From the IMG/VR virus record IMGVR_UViG_3300030117_000497, positions 1 to 37,782 of that record: DNA of 37,782 bases. One strand, written 5' to 3'. Below, piece after piece: positions 14,609 through 37,782 of the stretch; positions within the stretch are counted from its first letter, which is position 1, and every line of letters starts with the position of its first letter. The position numbers and the translations under genes were made by a program. Below the pieces are notes generated by a model. It saw only the letters and a program-made list of their open reading frames with translations. It made no database searches and was not told the origin of the DNA. The DNA comes from a virus.

Positions 14609-15331
14609 ATGGCAGGATTAACACTAGAAGAATTAGAAGGGTTTCAAACAGGTCGTACTATGTCTGACAAAGACGCACGACAGTCTGGACGCACTATGTC
14701 CGACAAAGATCTTTTAATGGAAGAACTTCGACGATTGCAAGAAGGTCGTACCTTATCTGATAGAGACATTATGGAGGCTTTGTCATATTTAGAAGGGTCT
14801 GCCCCAGAAGTTCCACAATCAGGTCGTGCTTTATCTGATAGAGATATGGTTCCTATGTTGCAAGGAGGAGGACAAACGATGCCTGTGCCGCCTGTCCCTC
14901 CTATGTCACAACAACCACCGCCTCCTGTCCCTGCTGTCGGAGGAGGATTACCGAGTGTTGCTGACAATATGAGAAACGCTATGCCGCCAGCTAAACCACC
15001 ACCCCCTATGCCTCCTGCAGAAAGTCCTGAACAAATGGCAGGAATGCCATCTATGACTCCTGAAGTAGAACAAGCGATTGCTCAAACTATAGAAGTCAGT
15101 GAAACACCAGAAGAAATATTAACTAACGCGATGGCCTCAACTGTGGTTTCTGTTGCTGAATCACCAGAAGAAATTATCAGCACGTTTGAAACTGCTAAAG
15201 AACAGGCACTTATGCAGTATGCTCAGATAACAGGTTCTCCAGACGCGGGAATGTCTGAAACTGACGCTAGGCTTATGGAGTTACTTGGCGGCGGCGACGA
15301 AATGATGATGTCAGAAGAGGTAATGATTTAA
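14609..15331 (+). CDS. Proline-rich virion protein with four GRxxSDxD repeats
   Basis: A 240-residue protein. The N-terminal 80 residues carry four copies of an octapeptide: GRTMSDKD at 15 and 27, GRTLSDRD at 46 and GRALSDRD at 72, mostly preceded by T/S/E. A proline-rich linker follows (about 90-145, with VPPVPPM and PPPPMPP), then an acidic helical tail with two copies of (S/T)PEEI. The octapeptide also occurs once in the 7512-9686 product. This looks like a flexible scaffold with repeated docking peptides. RBS aaaggaga lies 6-7 nt upstream. Its stop codon overlaps the stop of the convergent helicase gene. Confidence 0.62.
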   Translation: MAGLTLEELEGFQTGRTMSDKDARQSGRTMSDKDLLMEELRRLQEGRTLSDRDIMEALSYLEGSAPEVPQSGRALSDRDMVPMLQGGGQTMPVPPVPPMSQQPPPPVPAVGGGLPSVADNMRNAMPPAKPPPPMPPAESPEQMAGMPSMTPEVEQAIAQTIEVSETPEEILTNAMASTVVSVAESPEEIISTFETAKEQALMQYAQITGSPDAGMSETDARLMELLGGGDEMMMSEEVMI

Positions 15332-16770
15332 GTAAGCCACGACTTCCATTTTTCATCGCCTAATACTTCTTGAGCTAGATTTAGTTTGTTCCTAAGAGCC
15401 TTGACGATATTTTCGTCAACGGTTTTTGGTGAAACTAGATCAACATAAGTTACTTTATTTTTCTGGCCTATCCGATGTGCGCGGTCTTCGGACTGTAGTC
15501 TTTTTTCTAAATCAAAATTATTCGAGTAGTAGATTACATTTTGTGCTTGAGTCAGTGTAATCCCGTAGCCTCCTGTTTGTGTATTTCCTACGAAGTACCG
15601 AAGTTCTGAATCAGGATCTTGAAATCGTTCTATAACGCTTTCTCTTTCTTCGTCAGAAGTATCGCCGTAATAACTAGCTACACAATCAGGCCCACCTAGT
15701 TCTTGCATGGTTTCCACGATCTCTCTTATGTTGTGTCGGTAATTTGCCCAGATAATAATCTTACCTCGCATCTCACCGATGACATTGATCAGTTCGTCTA
15801 TCCTATTGTTTTCTATGGGTATTTCTGTTCCCTCGTCTGTTTTCGTATAGCCGCAAACTACTTGGTGAAGCCTAAGCATTTGCGTGAGTACGTTGTTTAC
15901 TGACACCTGTTCCATCTCACCTAGTTCTGCTATCGCATACTCTTTCAGTTCTCCGTAAACTTTCTTTTGTTCAGGGGTCAGTTCTACTTCTCTGCGAAGG
16001 TAAACCTTATCAGGTAAGTCAAGACACTCTTTCTTCAGTACACGGTAGGAAAACCTATCTACACGCTCCGAAAGTTCTTCTAGGTTCTGATAGCCTACGA
16101 CTTGTCTAAATGATCTAGCACCGAAGTGTCGTTTAACGACCTGACCGTAGTGATTCTGAAACGAATAGAACGAAGTAAACCCTAGCAAACTAGGAGAAAG
16201 AACTTCGGTCTGTGAATACAGATCTAAAGGAGACTGCGTAATAGGAAAGCCTGTCAGTATCCTTCTGTATTTAGCGTTTTTAGAAAGTTTGATAAGAGCC
16301 TTGGTACGAGCCGCTTTAGGGTTCTTAATTGTCGTTGACTCATCGATCGCTAACAGTGTCTGATGCGCCAGTATAAAGTTCTCAGCGAAGGTCAGACCTT
16401 TCTTAGTGCTGAAGGCTTCTACGTTCATTACTAGAATCTTTAGCTCGTTAGTTACCTCGAACAAATCCATCAGCTTTTGTTTCTCTTCTTTCTTAGGCGA
16501 TGGAGACCAGACACCTATCCGATGCTCTATGTAATCTGGTAAATGTGTAGGAAGCTCTCGTTCTGACCAGTTACGGTAAACTCCTTTAGGAGCCACAATA
16601 ACCACACCCGTTACTGAGCCTTTACTGTAAAGTATCGCAAAGTTATCTATTAAAACTTTCGACTTCCCCGTACCCATCTCCATAAAGAACGCATAGTGCT
16701 CTTTGTTCCAAGCCTTTAGTAGTGCGTCTTTTTGATGAGCATACGGGTCTGTTTTAAACTCGTATTTCAT
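15328..16770 (-). CDS. SNF2-family DEAD/H helicase-like ATPase
   Basis: A 480-residue superfamily 2 translocase of the SNF2/RapA type. Visible motifs: Walker A GTGKS (33-37), motif II DEST (143-146, replacing DEAH), motif III-like RILTGFP (about 189-195), GGYGITLTQAQNVIYY in the C-terminal lobe, and motif VI QSEDRAHRIGQ (about 426-436), the SNF2 signature. It is the compact phage version with no accessory DNA-binding domain. Likely role in phage DNA replication or remodelling protein-DNA complexes. It is one of only two clear minus-strand genes, has an aaagga RBS just upstream of its ATG, and faces the AT-rich region at 16790-17030. Confidence 0.9.
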   Translation of the reverse strand: MKYEFKTDPYAHQKDALLKAWNKEHYAFFMEMGTGKSKVLIDNFAILYSKGSVTGVVIVAPKGVYRNWSERELPTHLPDYIEHRIGVWSPSPKKEEKQKLMDLFEVTNELKILVMNVEAFSTKKGLTFAENFILAHQTLLAIDESTTIKNPKAARTKALIKLSKNAKYRRILTGFPITQSPLDLYSQTEVLSPSLLGFTSFYSFQNHYGQVVKRHFGARSFRQVVGYQNLEELSERVDRFSYRVLKKECLDLPDKVYLRREVELTPEQKKVYGELKEYAIAELGEMEQVSVNNVLTQMLRLHQVVCGYTKTDEGTEIPIENNRIDELINVIGEMRGKIIIWANYRHNIREIVETMQELGGPDCVASYYGDTSDEERESVIERFQDPDSELRYFVGNTQTGGYGITLTQAQNVIYYSNNFDLEKRLQSEDRAHRIGQKNKVTYVDLVSPKTVDENIVKALRNKLNLAQEVLGDEKWKSWLT

Positions 16771-17030
16771 CTTAATCCTTTCTAAGTTCTACGCGAAGAA
16801 TAATATATATAGAGAAGAATATATATGAGAGATTAAAAGTTTTCTCGCGGCCTCTTTATTCTTCTAATAACTAATAGGAATTCTATTAGTTTTCACTCAG
16901 TAAGAAAATTCTTATAGAACAGACTCTTAACCCTAGTTCTATTAGATCTATTACTCTATTAGACGATTCTGTTAACTTTTTTAAAAAAAGTAAAATTCTA
17001 CAGATAGACTATAGAACTAATAGAAAGCCC
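16771..17030. other. AT-rich origin-like/regulatory region with CTATTAG repeats
   Basis: No gene is seen here. The stretch is strongly AT-rich, with two direct repeats of a GAAGAATA-ATATAT-like run (about 16795-16832), a 9-bp-arm inverted repeat AACTAATAG/CTATTAGTT around a 5-nt centre (16869-16891), further CTATTAG or CTAATAG copies at 16939, 16956 and 17017 plus one near-copy at 16948, and an 8-bp A/T inverted repeat (16975-16991). Repeated short sites in an unwinding-prone region upstream of a helicase gene fit a replication origin or a cluster of regulator sites. It must also hold the promoter for the minus-strand helicase. Confidence 0.45.
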
Positions 17031-17193
17031 GTTTCCAACTACGAGTGGGCGAAGCTCGTTAGGTGAAGGATTCATCGGTATCCTTCGAGTTGTTCGTCCT
17101 ACCGACATATTATAGTTGCCGGTAGTATTTGCGTTCAGCGAGAGTGCCTACAGCGACGTTATTATTACCTGTAGTATTAATCCCAAGAGCTGT
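17031..17193 (-). pseudogene. Relic of tail-fibre TTGxxNxAVG repeats (left part)
   Basis: Read on the minus strand this segment encodes fragments of a repeat typical of phage fibres and adhesins. One frame gives TALGINTTGNNNVAVGTLA (about 17193-17137), then hits a stop. The next frame gives ALSLNANTTGNYNMSVG (about 17146-17096) and runs on to a stop near 17000. Joining the two with a 2-nt shift restores AVGTL-ALNANTTGNYN, as expected for an intact repeat, so a frame-breaking deletion is likely. No start codon with an RBS is seen. The upper end overlaps the last codons of the zinc-ribbon gene in a different frame. Confidence 0.55.
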
Positions 17194-17371
17194 CTGGTTT
17201 TTCTTCGTCCACAGTCATGTAACAAGGTTGTCCACAAGAAGCACACTCCATAACGTGTTCCTCAAACACTCGCCAATAAGAGCTTTCGCAGGTAGGACAT
17301 ACGAGCGCAACTTTCTCTTCTTCTTTTACTAAGTCTTTATCGTATGGAAATTCTATAATTTTTGCAGTCAT
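17177..17371 (-). CDS. Small zinc-ribbon protein
   Basis: A 64-residue protein with two knuckles, C25-P-T-C28 and C43-A-S-C46, in an arrangement expected for a zinc ribbon, plus C50. An acidic tail follows. The N-terminus (MTAKIIEFPYDKD) is common in small phage and bacterial regulators. The RBS is good on the minus strand (ttgaggcaatc before ATG). The start overlaps, as ATGA, a short upstream reading frame made of tail-fibre-type repeats, and its end overlaps another such relic. Probably a DNA- or protein-binding accessory protein. A plus-strand reading of the same segment lacks any family features and is rejected. Confidence 0.65.
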   Translation of the reverse strand: MTAKIIEFPYDKDLVKEEEKVALVCPTCESSYWRVFEEHVMECASCGQPCYMTVDEEKPDSSWD

Positions 17372-17475
17372 GATTGCCTCAAAAAACCTACAGCTGTATT
17401 ATAATATCCAGTCGTTACGAATAGAAATGCTTATAACCGACAGCAACATTTTCCATTCCAGCCGTAACAATAAAA
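17368..17475 (-). pseudogene. Relic of tail-fibre repeats (right part)
   Basis: On the minus strand, one frame reads VTAGMENVAVGYKHFYS (about 17469-17419) then a stop. The shifted frame reads VTTGYYNTAVGFLRQS (about 17418-17371) and then a stop whose TGA is shared with the zinc-ribbon start (ATGA). Both match the (T)TGxxNxAVGxxxL pattern of fibre repeats. The frame break between them suggests decay. No promoter or RBS for an intact product is seen. The segment overlaps the upstream region of the plus-strand gene at 17540. Confidence 0.5.
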
Positions 17476-17480
17476 ACCTC

Positions 17481-17509
17481 TTTACTTTTCAGCGGGTTAT
17501 AACTTAGAC
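17481..17509 (+). promoter_or_regulatory. Possible promoter for the replication operon
   Basis: TTTACT at 17481-17486, preceded by CTC, matches the -35 shared by the other promoters in the window. At a normal 17-nt spacing the -10 would be the poor TTAGAC (17504-17509); the better TATAAC at 17498 is too close (11 nt). It lies about 30 nt before the first plus-strand replication gene. Weak member of the family. Confidence 0.35.
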
Positions 17510-17539
17510 TAAAAAAGTTCGTATAAAGGAGAAAGTAGA

Positions 17540-19256: not shown

Positions 19257-20780
19257 ATGTCTTTACAAGAGCAGTTTGCCCACCGTTTCGCGGGGTTGAG
19301 ACACGGACATAGTGTCTTTACCCCGACGAAAGAAACACGGGAAGATGGGAAAGCAAAAGGTAATTATGTAACGATCTCAAAGACGATAACTCAGAAAGAG
19401 TTACACGAACTTTGGAATCAACATTTAAAAGGTGAAAAGGGTCTCGGCCTAGTGCCGATAGATGAAAACAATAGTTGTGTCTGGGGAGCTATAGACATAG
19501 ATGAGTTCACACTAGACCTCAAAGGTCTGGCTAAGAAACTCAAAAAGTTTAAGCTCCCTCTTGTGGTCTGTCGTTCTAAAAGCGGCGGGGCACATTTATT
19601 TCTGTTTGTCTTCGATCCCGTACCGGCCTCGTCCATGCAGAAAAAACTTCGGCAAGTAGCTTCTGCAATCGGGTTCGGGCAAGCAGAAATATTTCCAAAA
19701 CAATCGAAGCTGTTACTAGAAAGGGGAGACAGAGGAAGTTCCTTGAACATGCCGTACTTCGGAGGAGAAGACTCCACCGGATATGCGTTCGGAGCAACAG
19801 GAAACGTACTCACTCCTCAACAGTTTTTAGATTACGCAGACGGGTTAGTTCTTACTGAGGATGAATTGAATAAGCTGGAGGTGACTCCGGTGCTCGAAGA
19901 TTCTCAGTGGTTAGAACAATCCCCGCCATGCCTAGAGCATCTAATTGCTCAAGGTTTTCCTAAAGGTATGCGTAACTCTGGTTTGTTTAATGTCGGAGTC
20001 TTTCTAAGAAAAAAGTTTCCTGACGACTGGGAAAAACAACTAGAGGAAATAAACCACAAATACATGCAACCACCGTTAAGCGCACAGGAGGTGCTGTCGG
20101 TAGCTAAACAATTACAAAAGAAGGATTATTTCTACAAATGCAACGATCAACCGATCGCAGGGTTCTGTAACAGTCCTTTGTGTAGAACCCGTAAGTTTGG
20201 AGTAGGGGCTTCAGGAGGAACGCCTCTTTTCAGTAACTTAACGAAGCAGAACAGTGATCCACCCATCTGGTTCTTAGATGTAGAAGGTGGGCGGTTAGAG
20301 CTTGAAACAGAGGAGCTTCTTAATCAGACCAAGTTTCAGCGTAAGTGTATGGACAGTTTAAATATTATTCCTCCGAAGGTTAGGGATAATGTCTGGCGGT
20401 CTATCATTCAGCAGTTACTTGACGCGCTGACTATTATTGAAGTTCCTAAAGACGCATCGACAGAAGGCCACTTTAACGAGCTGTTAGAGACTTTTTGTAC
20501 AGAGCGACCAGCTAGGGAGAAAGACGAGATACTATTAGGTAAGCCGTGGTCTGATAAAGGCAGGACTTATTTTAGACTCGCAGACCTAATGGATTTTTTA
20601 CACCGTAAGAACTTTAGAGATTACCCTAGAAACAAACTAACTGCTAAATTAAAAGATCTCGGAGGAGAAGCTCACTTCTTTAATATAAAAGGAAGGGGCG
20701 CGAACGTATGGCACATAGTCGAGTTTGAAACTCAGACAGAGTCACACGACCTACCCGACTTCGATGAAAGAATAATCTAG
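19257..20780 (+). CDS. AEP-superfamily DNA primase (TOTE-like)
   Basis: A 507-residue archaeo-eukaryotic-type primase. Catalytic acidic pair D80-x-D82 in WGAIDIDEF, and the second motif SKSGGAHLFLF (S107 to H113) match the DxD and SxH motifs of AEP enzymes, most like the TOTE-associated primase group. Conserved C225 (PPCLEHL), then GMRNSGLFNVGVFLRK, and a cysteine set C295, C304, C309 (YKCNDQPIAGFCNSPLC) form the PriCT/zinc region found in such phage primases. The C-terminal 170 residues are unassigned. RBS aaggtgaggg precedes ATG. The stop shares its last base with the GTG start of the helicase, so primase and helicase are probably co-translated partners. Confidence 0.85.
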   Translation: MSLQEQFAHRFAGLRHGHSVFTPTKETREDGKAKGNYVTISKTITQKELHELWNQHLKGEKGLGLVPIDENNSCVWGAIDIDEFTLDLKGLAKKLKKFKLPLVVCRSKSGGAHLFLFVFDPVPASSMQKKLRQVASAIGFGQAEIFPKQSKLLLERGDRGSSLNMPYFGGEDSTGYAFGATGNVLTPQQFLDYADGLVLTEDELNKLEVTPVLEDSQWLEQSPPCLEHLIAQGFPKGMRNSGLFNVGVFLRKKFPDDWEKQLEEINHKYMQPPLSAQEVLSVAKQLQKKDYFYKCNDQPIAGFCNSPLCRTRKFGVGASGGTPLFSNLTKQNSDPPIWFLDVEGGRLELETEELLNQTKFQRKCMDSLNIIPPKVRDNVWRSIIQQLLDALTIIEVPKDASTEGHFNELLETFCTERPAREKDEILLGKPWSDKGRTYFRLADLMDFLHRKNFRDYPRNKLTAKLKDLGGEAHFFNIKGRGANVWHIVEFETQTESHDLPDFDERII

Positions 20781-22273
20781 TGTTAAGCAGTAAGGCTCAG
20801 GTCATATTGGGACCTCCTGGAACGGGCAAAACAAGCACGCTACTAGGATTATTGGAAGAGGAACTCGAAAGGGGGACTGAGCCTGAACGCATAGGATTTT
20901 TTACGTTTACTAAACAAGCTGTACAGGAAGGAAAAACGAGAGCAATCTCCAGGTTTGAAATTAACAAGAATCAATTACCGTATTTTCGCACACTCCACTC
21001 GTTATGTTTTTTACAGCTAGGGCTGACTAAAGAGAGTGTGTTAGGAGGCGCAGACCTCCATGATCTAAACGAGAAACTTAACCTAAGATTATCTGGTTCA
21101 GGAGCCTCAGACGAGGGACATATATCAGGTATCTCAAAAGATGACCGTCTACTATTTATAGAGAACCTAGCTCGAATGCGTCAGACCACACTAGAAGATC
21201 AGTGGCAAGAAGTAGACGATGCAGTTGGGTGGTTTGAACTAGAGCGGTTTGCCAGAGGACTTAAACTGTTTAAAGAAGACCGTCTACTGCTAGATTACAC
21301 TGATATGTTGCAGCAGTTTTTAGAGCGAGGGGTTGCTCCGAAACTAGATGTAATGTTCGTAGACGAAGCGCAAGATCTCTCACCGCTACAGTGGGCGGTG
21401 GTTAGAAAACTGTGTGATTCAGCAGAGCGTGTGTATATTGCAGGAGACGATGACCAAGCTATCTATCGTTGGGCTGGTGCAGATGTTGACTATCTAATTC
21501 GTAATTCTAAAGATGCGATAATTCTCAAACAGTCCTACAGAATCCCTAAATCTATTCATAACCTTGCCGAGCGTTGTATCGGACAAGTAAGCTCACGGGT
21601 ACATAAAGTATGGAACCCCAGAAAAGAGAAAGGACTGGTTAGATGGGAAGCAGCATTTGACAATGTAGACATGGCAGAAGGTGACTGGTTAGTCTTGGCT
21701 CGTACTAATTATCTGTTACAAAATGTTGAAGACTACTGTCGATCTGAAGGATGGTTCTTTAAAAACAAAAATAGAGCCAGTATCTCGGAGAAAAAAGTTA
21801 GAGCAGTCCGATCTTGGGAATCGCTCCGCGCAGAGGGTCTTGTTCCCATGATAGAAGTTACCAATGTCTTAAATTATTTAAAGACTCGCGTACCTTCTTC
21901 TCTCGCGGTAATCGACTTTGATACTTTAATTTCCCTTAAAGAACTAAAGAAACACGTTCCTCAGCTAAAAGAAGGATATTGGTACGATGTGTTCGAAGGA
22001 ATCTCAGTTAAAGAACGAAGTTACATCCGAGCGATGTTGAGAAGAGGAGAAAAAATTACACAAGAGCCGCGTATTCGGATTTCGACTATCCATGCGGCAA
22101 AAGGTGGAGAAGCAACTAACGTCATTTTACTTACTGACATATCTTCTCGCGTGTTTAAATCGTACCAACAAAACCCTGATGACGAATCACGAGTGTTTTA
22201 TGTTGGGCTAACTAGGGCAAAGGAGAATCTGTTTTTAATTGAACCGCAAACTCAAAAGTACTACCCACTATAA
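20780..22273 (+). CDS. UvrD/Rep-like superfamily 1 DNA helicase
   Basis: A 497-residue SF1A helicase. Motif I GPPGTGKT (11-18), motif Ia FFTFTKQAVQE, motif II DEAQD (195-199), motif III GDDDQAIYRWAGAD (about 222-235), motif V ISTIHAAKGGEATNV and motif VI YVGLTRAKENLFLI are all present. It is shorter than bacterial UvrD (about 720 residues), lacking the large 2B insertions, as in other phage versions. Likely 3'-5' replicative or repair unwinding beside the primase. It starts with GTG at 20780, overlapping the primase stop. Confidence 0.92.
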   Translation: MLSSKAQVILGPPGTGKTSTLLGLLEEELERGTEPERIGFFTFTKQAVQEGKTRAISRFEINKNQLPYFRTLHSLCFLQLGLTKESVLGGADLHDLNEKLNLRLSGSGASDEGHISGISKDDRLLFIENLARMRQTTLEDQWQEVDDAVGWFELERFARGLKLFKEDRLLLDYTDMLQQFLERGVAPKLDVMFVDEAQDLSPLQWAVVRKLCDSAERVYIAGDDDQAIYRWAGADVDYLIRNSKDAIILKQSYRIPKSIHNLAERCIGQVSSRVHKVWNPRKEKGLVRWEAAFDNVDMAEGDWLVLARTNYLLQNVEDYCRSEGWFFKNKNRASISEKKVRAVRSWESLRAEGLVPMIEVTNVLNYLKTRVPSSLAVIDFDTLISLKELKKHVPQLKEGYWYDVFEGISVKERSYIRAMLRRGEKITQEPRIRISTIHAAKGGEATNVILLTDISSRVFKSYQQNPDDESRVFYVGLTRAKENLFLIEPQTQKYYPL

Positions 22274-22277
22274 ACTC

Positions 22278-22308
22278 CTTTACTTTCAAATAAAAAGTAA
22301 AGTAGAAT
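22278..22308 (+). promoter_or_regulatory. Promoter of the modification/polymerase operon, with inverted repeat
   Basis: TTTACT (-35, 22279-22284), an 18-nt spacer and TAGAAT (-10, 22303-22308). The -35 and spacer form a 9-bp perfect inverted repeat CTTTACTTT / AAAGTAAAG (22278-22286 and 22294-22302, 7-nt loop), which could be a repressor site or an RNA hairpin from upstream readthrough. It lies just after the helicase gene and 25 nt before the next start. Confidence 0.6.
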
Positions 22309-22332
22309 AAGTTACTAAGAAAGGAGAAATAA

Positions 22333-22833
22333 ATGAATATATTTGTTACTGACCCAGATCCAGTAATAAGTGCACAGACGTTGTGTGATAAACACGTTGT
22401 CAAGATGATTCTTGAGTCAGCGCAGATGTTATCAACAGCGTGGCGCGAGTACTCGACAGAATATTCAGATGAGAATGAGTTGTACCAAGCAGCATACATA
22501 AATCATCCCTGTACTATCTGGACTCGATTAGCTCGAGAGAACTATAGATGGCTGTATAAACACTTTATTGCTTTGTGCGAAGAATACACACACCGTTACG
22601 GGAAAAGCCATGCTTCTGCTAGACTCAAAGGGCCATTGATGTGGGCTCCCTTTAAACCCCGTTCTGTCTTGGCTACGATAGAACAACCCTACGGTTTTGT
22701 ATTAGCGATGCCGGATGAATATAAGTCAGACGATGTGTTTGACTCTTATCGAAATTATTTAATAAACGAAAAACAACATTTTGCTAAATGGGAAAAAGAC
22801 CCTAGCCGCAAACCAACATGGTGGAGAATATAA
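22333..22833 (+). CDS. Conserved phage protein (DKHVVK family), function unknown
   Basis: A 166-residue protein opening with MNIFVTDPDP and CDKHVVKMILESAQMLSTAW, a signature of a family that is common in phages, including marine ones, but has no established function to my knowledge. Further conserved-looking parts are NHPCTIWTRLARENYRWLYK and the W-rich end (KPTWWRI). It is all-helical in character with many W, Y and H. It is the first gene after the promoter at 22279, has a strong aaaggag RBS, and leads the modification-gene operon, so a link to DNA or nucleotide processing is possible. Confidence 0.75.
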   Translation: MNIFVTDPDPVISAQTLCDKHVVKMILESAQMLSTAWREYSTEYSDENELYQAAYINHPCTIWTRLARENYRWLYKHFIALCEEYTHRYGKSHASARLKGPLMWAPFKPRSVLATIEQPYGFVLAMPDEYKSDDVFDSYRNYLINEKQHFAKWEKDPSRKPTWWRI

Positions 22834-34559: not shown

Positions 34560-34737
34560 TGTGATGAAAATGTGTGCGATTTGTAAAGACCCAATCGACG
34601 TACAGAAGACGCCCGAGGGGGTGGTGTTTTGGACTGAAGGCCACAACGCTATGCCAGTGGTCGAGGGACGATGCTGTACGAGCTGCAACTACTCGGTTGT
34701 GATACCCGCTCGACTCGGGAGGGCGATCAATGCCTAG
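34546..34737 (+). CDS. Small treble-clef-like zinc protein
   Basis: A 63-residue protein with C10-A-I-C13 and C43/C44-T-S-C47 and a conserved TEGHNAMPVVEGRCCTSCN core. This EGHNAxP...GRCC-xx-CN pattern recurs in phages and likely forms a zinc-binding knuckle. ATG 34546 with RBS ttggagaaactg; an in-frame TTG at 34534 is an alternative. Overlaps the 34730 gene by 8 nt. Confidence 0.68.
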   Translation: MKRVDVMKMCAICKDPIDVQKTPEGVVFWTEGHNAMPVVEGRCCTSCNYSVVIPARLGRAINA

Positions 34738-35023
34738 AGAAGTAATCGAGTGGGAATGGGAGGAGGCGTTCGATAAGTTTGGATTCGGAGACGGTGACGG
34801 TTGGAACGGAACCGATATCGTCGCCGACTTTATCGAGAGCCTCGGATACGAAACACAGCGAGACGTGTGGGGGATTCATAACTATGTGATTATGGACGTT
34901 ATGGTGAGATGTGGACCGATACAGATATCGATCATCCCACTGAAGACGAATATTAATTACGACAACCCGCACGACTATCTACCGAGAGACTTGGTTAGAG
35001 AATTGGAGGCAAGATTTGATTAA
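34730..35023 (+). CDS. Hypothetical protein, copy A of a duplicated gene
   Basis: A 97-residue acidic protein. The first 40 residues (PREVIEWEWEEAFDKFGFGD, DGWNGTDIVADFIESLGYET) are almost identical to the truncated gene at the right edge of the window; DGDGWNGT is a striking acidic loop. The C-terminal half is a mixed alpha/beta tail (MDVMVRCGPIQISIIPLKTN). Overlaps neighbours on both sides. Function unknown; see the duplication finding. Confidence 0.68.
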   Translation: MPREVIEWEWEEAFDKFGFGDGDGWNGTDIVADFIESLGYETQRDVWGIHNYVIMDVMVRCGPIQISIIPLKTNINYDNPHDYLPRDLVRELEARFD

Positions 35024-36340: not shown

Positions 36341-36415
36341 GTAGTTCTCCGAGCGGCCTTACGAGGCCGCTTTAAGAAACACTTAGTTTCATTAACCAAT
36401 AGAAAGGAGAATTGT
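36341..36415 (+). repeat. Duplicated hairpin leader module, copy A
   Basis: Starts right after the stop codon with GTAGTTCTCCGAGCGGC and ends at the RBS of the next gene. Holds an 8-bp hairpin AGCGGCCT/AGGCCGCT with a UACG loop (36352-36371) and a second stem GAAAC/GTTTC with loop ACTTA (36376-36390), then ATTAACCAATAGAAAGGAG. No promoter motif is present in it. Nearly the same element recurs at 37255. Confidence 0.7.
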
Positions 36416-37254: not shown

Positions 37255-37334
37255 GTAGTTCTCCGAGCGGCTTTCGAAAGGAGGCCGCTTTAAGAAACAC
37301 TTAGTTTCATTAACCAATAGAGAGGTAGAAAGAT
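37255..37334 (+). repeat. Duplicated hairpin leader module, copy B
   Basis: Starts with GTAGTTCTCCGAGCGGC directly after a stop codon, as in copy A. AGCGGC/GCCGCT (37266-37271, 37284-37289) closes a larger loop that itself holds CTTTC/GAAAG. The GAAAC/GTTTC stem (37294-37308) and ATTAACCAATAG follow identically to copy A. Serves as leader for the gene at 37335. Confidence 0.7.
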
Positions 37335-37652
37335 ATGGATGAAGAGCTAAGAAACATAGTGGACTACAACCACTTGTTCAAACTGGCTGAAGAACGGTTT
37401 TACAACAAGATCGCAGACCCAGAAGAAATGTTCGAGTCTTGGGCTCAGTACAACACTAAGATTGACCACCTTGGAGGAGCCTTATTGATTCATATGGATT
37501 ACGGGTTTCTAGGGTCGACCGAGCACACCTACTGGGTGCTGTTGGAAAGCGGAGAAAGCCACACGATTGACAAACACACGTACAAAAACCTAAACGATGT
37601 GCTGTGGGAATGTTATTCAGAATCACCTTTCAGGGAGAAAGAACATGCCTGA
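37335..37652 (+). CDS. Hypothetical protein
   Basis: A 105-residue acidic protein (YNHLFKLAEERFYNKIADPE; GGALLIHMDYGFLGSTEHTY; WVLLESGESHTIDKHTYKNL). Mixed alpha/beta, no recognised domain. RBS agaggtagaaagat in duplicated module B. Overlaps the next gene by 8 nt. Confidence 0.6.
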   Translation: MDEELRNIVDYNHLFKLAEERFYNKIADPEEMFESWAQYNTKIDHLGGALLIHMDYGFLGSTEHTYWVLLESGESHTIDKHTYKNLNDVLWECYSESPFREKEHA

Positions 37653-37782
37653 AGAATTAATCGAGTGGGAATGGGAAGAGGCGTTCGATAAGTTTGGATT
37701 CGGAGACGGTGACGGTTGGAACGGAACCGATATTGTCGGCGACTTTATCGAGAGCCTCGGATACGGAGTCGAACGTGATTAC
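37645..37782 (+). CDS. Hypothetical protein, copy B of duplicated gene, 3' end cut by window
   Basis: The first 46 codons of a gene whose start (PEELIEWEWEEAFDKFGFGD) is nearly identical to the product of 34730-35023. The nucleotide match covers 106 nt with three differences, two of them silent. After GYG the two copies diverge. RBS agggagaaagaac. The remaining part is outside the window. Confidence 0.68.
   Translation, partial: MPEELIEWEWEEAFDKFGFGDGDGWNGTDIVGDFIESLGYGVERDY

Follow-up and report, generated by a model that had tools for sequence, protein, structure and literature searches.

The described systems closest to the locus considered here are of two kinds. One comprises the fibre and spike arrays of phages, in which the peptide NTTGxxNTAVGxxALxx is repeated and which carry a C-terminal Peptidase_S74 domain (PF13884; PHROG 4636, 5668, 1980). 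The other comprises the PeSL promoter/stem-loop cassettes of T4-like phages (Arbiol et al. 2010; Comeau et al. 2014; both cited in PMC4503421), which, according to the account given in PMC4503421, are intergenic repeats near early-type promoters and small variable genes, and are discussed as aids to module shuffling. In the open-licence literature, we found no description of solitary fibre repeats in phage intergenic DNA, nor of conserved, out-of-frame repeat pieces on either side of a gene.

The window, by which we mean the whole stretch of DNA analysed, is a 37,782-bp IMG/VR virus record, a fragment from a marine phage distantly related to the HTVC023P group; contigs of its IMG/VR relatives reach up to 82 kb. 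Identities to the nearest named phages (HTVC023P, 023Pt_psg01, HTVC027P and DSL-LC04) are 47-52% for the DNA polymerase (52% to 023Pt_psg01 and 48% to HTVC023P) and 44-56% for the helicase (56% to 023Pt_psg01), and the genomes of these phages contain neither TTG repeats nor a match to the small CxxC gene described below. At the right end of the window, in a region of small genes, there are direct repeats of 45 nt (98%; 36363-36407 and 37281-37325) and of 121 nt (95%; 34730-34850 and 37645-37765); in relatives, the matches to these stretches stand in a shuffled order of positions, a sign of module shuffling there.

With the fibre and spike arrays, the repeat region of the window (Table 1) shares the peptide repeat, and its units are homologous DNA with the 51-nt period, apart from one or two lost bases. 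Unlike those arrays, it has four units only, which are frame-broken, intergenic, split by a gene and devoid of fibre end domains. With the PeSL cassettes, as that account presents them, it has in common that its units are intergenic repeats near a promoter-like motif and a small variable gene, and that one element occurs at several intergenic sites (three in the clade, where filled and empty sites could be compared). It differs from them in that the element is coding-derived fibre DNA and in that the phages are not T4-like; a promoter-like motif is adjacent, but the units hold no conserved stem-loop.

Table 1. Features of the repeat region and its neighbours (window coordinates)
Feature	Position	Strand	Remarks
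SNF2-type helicase gene	15328-16770	-	left neighbour of the repeat region
Inserted segment, fibre fragments and CxxC gene, ~450 bp	17027..17475 (ends approximate)		12-genome comparison
Hairpin behind the units, GAAGGAT/ATCCTTC	17064..17087		alignment of relatives
Fibre unit 4, NTTGNYNMSVG	17097..17129	-	49 nt after unit 3 (51 expected)
Fibre unit 3, NTTGNNNVAVGT	17146..17178	-	first bases are the TAA stop of the small gene
Intact 64-aa ORF, two CxxC knuckles (zinc-ribbon-like)	17177..17371	-	GAGG before ATG
Fibre unit 2, VTTGYYNTAVGF	17386..17418	-	50 nt after unit 1 (51 expected); runs into start of small gene
Fibre unit 1, VTAGMENVAVGYKHFYS	17415..17471	-	ends at TAA; motif match, also in relatives
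Putative phage promoter of the 115-aa gene, CTTTACTTTT ... TAGACT	17480..17510	+	directly beside the insertion
Pam3_gp32-like gene, 115 aa	17540-17887	+	right neighbour of the repeat region

All four TTGxxNxAVG units are on the minus strand, and a six-frame search of the window gives no other match; their first motif bases are at 17465 (VTAGMENVAVGYKHFYS*), 17415 (VTTGYYNTAVGFL), 17175 (TALGINTTGNNNVAVG) and 17126 (NANTTGNYNMSVG). From 140 intact units in the fibres of relatives, a profile was derived whose three top scores in the window (33.4, 16.1 and 11.5) fell on three of the four units; the two best were not reached in 100 Markov randomisations (best 11.7, none at or above 15). When a profile of the 12-residue core was used, all four units scored 24-38, against a maximum of 12 in 600 kb of random DNA. 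The spacings within the two pairs, 50 and 49 nt versus the 51-nt period of intact arrays, indicate a frame shift within both of them. That two bases are missing near 17140 is supported by the intact fibre array of an unrelated phage (L150), which reads NALNANTTG through an identical 17-mer. On all these points, i.e. the location of the four matches, their improbability by chance, the shift in each pair and the two bases to be restored, an earlier note on this DNA had been correct. Assembly or sequencing error as the source of the shifts was rejected, four separate contigs showing identical spacings.

Homology of the insert to the fibre repeat is thus evident from the profile scores, and also from the presence of the same DNA in frame in other phages: the unit DNA pattern was found in IMG/VR at 39 loci, 38 of which have it in frame inside long arrays, the 39th belonging to this clade (G004). 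The insert does not form a single open frame at the 51-nt period, being interrupted by stops, shifts and the intervening gene, and it consists of repeat fragments only, with neither an N-terminal fibre domain nor a C-terminal Peptidase_S74. No donor array for the units was found in IMG/VR by exact pattern, and a DNA-level search of named phages with the repeat region returned chance matches only.

The earlier note was right about the fibre origin of the repeats, but it overlooked the intact CxxC gene which the units bracket, one pair on each side, and because of which they must be seen as two pairs rather than as one run. Among the sequences fetched, this gene is found only in the window and three relatives. 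With a dN/dS of about 0.07-0.14, it is, by this measure, under purifying selection. Its TAA stop codon falls in the opening bases of unit 3 (TAATACTAC), and in G003 the stop likewise lies in that unit though the C-terminus differs; owing to this difference, an extension of the gene into unit 3 by frame shifting was dropped. The gene is only 64% identical between the window and G003 with synonymous sites saturated, so that a recent exchange of the entire repeat/gene block can be discounted. Profile libraries did not name it convincingly, no convincing relative was found in bacterial genomes or named phages, and its AlphaFold model (pLDDT 46) is too poor for use.

When the intergenic region between the helicase and the 115-aa gene was compared across 12 genomes, the segment proved to be absent from six relatives (G006-G009, G012 and G015; helicases 71-73% identical). 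In these empty sites, the intergenic region is 296-304 nt long and an AT-rich leader is directly joined to the promoter-like CTTTAC motif. At this joint, about 470-490 nt more are present in the window, G001, G002 and G003, and about 70-110 nt more in G004 and G005, which have fibre pieces without the CxxC gene, their complete TTG units pointing the opposite way. Since six relatives are without it, the ~450-bp segment is an insertion, and an ancestral fibre gene at this site is excluded. The AT-rich region, which had been called origin-like, also exists in the empty sites and is therefore not part of the insertion. The unit stands as two exact 31-nt tandem copies in G004 (L006, 10588-10647) and as one in G005 (L007, 6175); as these genomes are nearly identical, unit number changes quickly at this site. 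A second copy of the helicase AT-rich leader was noticed in G003 (744-886; 74% over 147 nt with window 16863-17004).

The motif of the putative promoter, CTTTACTTTC, recurs between genes of these phages. An intergenic motif, (C/G)TCCTTTACTTTC, is present at window positions 17480, 22275, 28763, 30665, 33240 and 35174, with a TAxxxT-like box about 17-18 nt further on, and similar copies exist between genes of relatives; it has the look of a promoter specific to the phage. Although GCTTTACTTTCT (codons for ALLS) does occur in fibre arrays, that CTTTACTTTC might be a fibre remnant was rejected as a coincidence, because its spacing to AVG at the intergenic sites differs from that of an in-register repeat. 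The stem of the hairpin behind the units is kept at roughly this position in relatives with other sequences (AAGGATG/CATCCTT and AGGGT/ACCCT, in an alignment read by eye).

The earlier note had suggested looking for variants in related phages, and three relatives, G001, G002 and G003, do carry the same units with the same shifts, except that TTG reads TTR in unit 1 of G001. Part of a fifth unit, RTAVGYNALVA, is kept in these three and lost in the window. Between the window and G003, 135 of 164 unit positions are identical (82%), versus 72 of 171 fourfold sites of the adjacent helicase (42%; p = 2e-14); for G002, the figures are 142/163 (87%) and 116/194 (60%; p = 7e-9), and for G001, the closest genome, 148/163 and 170/203, which is not informative. 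The units do not, then, change at the synonymous-site rate of a neutral pseudogene, and to call them decayed, as was done at first, is misleading. However, the adjoining intergenic DNA is conserved too, the neighbouring leader and promoter (0.81 and 0.86) as much as the units, so that the constraint may be regional and not unit-specific.

Two further gene junctions hold solitary units. At site 2, a unit directly follows a stop codon in G009, G010, G012, G016, L157 and L164, and the homologous gene end is empty in the window, G001, G002 and L119; G009 has one unit more than G012, in inverted orientation. The site 2 unit is identical in G009 and G012 at 33 of 33 nt, whereas fourfold identity there is 0.83. 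Site 3 is the end of a gene in G007; both its stop codon and a ribosome-binding site (GTAGGAGG) come from the unit, which is absent from G008, L122, L126 and L127. No out-of-frame solitary unit was found at 38 other array-bearing loci (2-14 kb each); in L094, two units stand in a second open frame. From site to site, the units vary in orientation and spacing and so give no sign of a single shared mechanism.

Our preferred reading, held with moderate confidence, is that recombination carried fibre-array DNA into gene junctions, in one case along with a small gene, and that this DNA was retained there as non-coding sequence. An ancestor of the clade would have acquired a segment of about 450 bp between the leader of the SNF2-type helicase gene and the next gene's promoter, made up of fragments of a fibre array (four TTGxxNxAVG units or more) around the small CxxC gene, the fragments not being translated as fibre. 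These pieces probably arose through recombination with a fibre array, in which 20-40 similar 51-bp units would offer many short homologies. They would then have been kept as untranslated gene borders, with unit 2 at a gene start, unit 3 at a stop and unit 1 beside the promoter. The placement of units at such borders (stop codon, ribosome-binding site, promoter-adjacent DNA) is observed, and a function there would follow from it only by inference. The reading draws its support from the fibre identity, the empty sites, the kept shifts, the selected gene, the conservation, the two further junctions and the variable number of units at these sites. Against it stand the possibly regional nature of the constraint, the occurrence of the filled site in only four genomes, the differences in unit orientation and spacing between sites, the failure to find a donor array and the absence of a shared RNA structure.

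The main rival explanation is that the segment is a plain relic, inserted by illegitimate recombination and not yet lost, its units being roleless and its gene present by chance or by hitch-hiking. The insertion itself is shown, decay is compatible with the frame shifts and with the window's loss of unit 5, and no defined structure or motif accounts for the conservation. But identity to G003 and G002 far above that of fourfold sites is not what a relic should show, nor is the complete identity of the site 2 unit. Conservation thus weakens this explanation, which we consider rather unlikely although worth keeping in mind. The same evidence divides the suggestion of the earlier note that the repeats are a pseudogene left by recombination: the empty sites uphold inserted, frame-broken fibre DNA, and the conservation above synonymous sites speaks against free decay.

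Another possibility, which seems to us distinctly improbable, is that the units are an expression element of the CxxC gene, units 1 and 2 forming a leader, perhaps with a 13-codon ORF, and units 3 and 4 with the hairpin a trailer. Units do lie before the start and at the stop codon, and four genomes keep an inner short ORF within unit 1, M(E/K/R)NVAVGYKHFYS, in which, codon 2 aside, the changes are synonymous; the variable core sites are distributed 7/7/15 by codon position, a weak bias (p = 0.03). However, this ORF is without a good ribosome-binding site, the conserved stretch crosses the frame shift, and the leader folds no better than shuffled sequences. Folding of the units gave no common structure across genomes (z-scores of -0.7 and -2.8 for the window, -0.6 and -0.4 for L003, -0.8 and +0.5 for L005).

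An intact fibre gene with such repeats, which the earlier note had proposed to look for, does exist in relatives: most of the larger ones have one array, 880-1040 aa where complete, and a Peptidase_S74 domain is present in the fibre gene of G001, the one tested. In G001, the end of the array lies ~480 bp outside the left end of the window, counted from the position equivalent to its base 1. It is true, as was remarked at the time, that the window holds no intact fibre gene, but this is probably an effect of the contig ending short of it. Arrays are located at a contig end in G002 and G009 and at both ends in G015, which fits expectation if repeats break assembly. On the 81.9-kb contig of G012 (IMGVR_UViG_3300037962_000140), there are two different arrays, 20086-22801 and 78514-81562, of 905 and 1016 aa with 15 and 19 motif hits and ~58 kb apart; this may be one genome with two arrays or a joined assembly of two strains. 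Although arrays and solitary units coexist in seven genomes (G001, G002, G007, G009, G010, G012 and G016), the proposal of the earlier note that the units are a reservoir, recombining into the fibre gene and varying the fibre, is highly implausible, for the units are too few, keep their frame shifts in all four genomes, are missing at this site from the six relatives with empty sites, and reach no more than about 68% identity with their own genome's array, versus 92-93% with each other between G001 and G002. Exchange with the expressed fibre gene, or gene conversion by the genome's own array, should have raised that identity, and no such rise is seen in G001 or G002.

We may extend the preferred reading, i.e. 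the recombination of fibre-array DNA into gene junctions, only as a speculation that is on balance unlikely: fibre-repeat DNA would be a conserved non-coding junction element in these phages, at which small genes are gained and lost through recombination between solitary units, perhaps also with the array. Repeat-rich fibre genes are usually regarded only as host-range determinants. If fibre repeat DNA does seed junctions as well and is afterwards retained in a non-coding use, this would give small accessory genes a concrete way into phage genomes, and would be an instance of coding DNA taken over for regulatory or structural purposes where the genome is compact.
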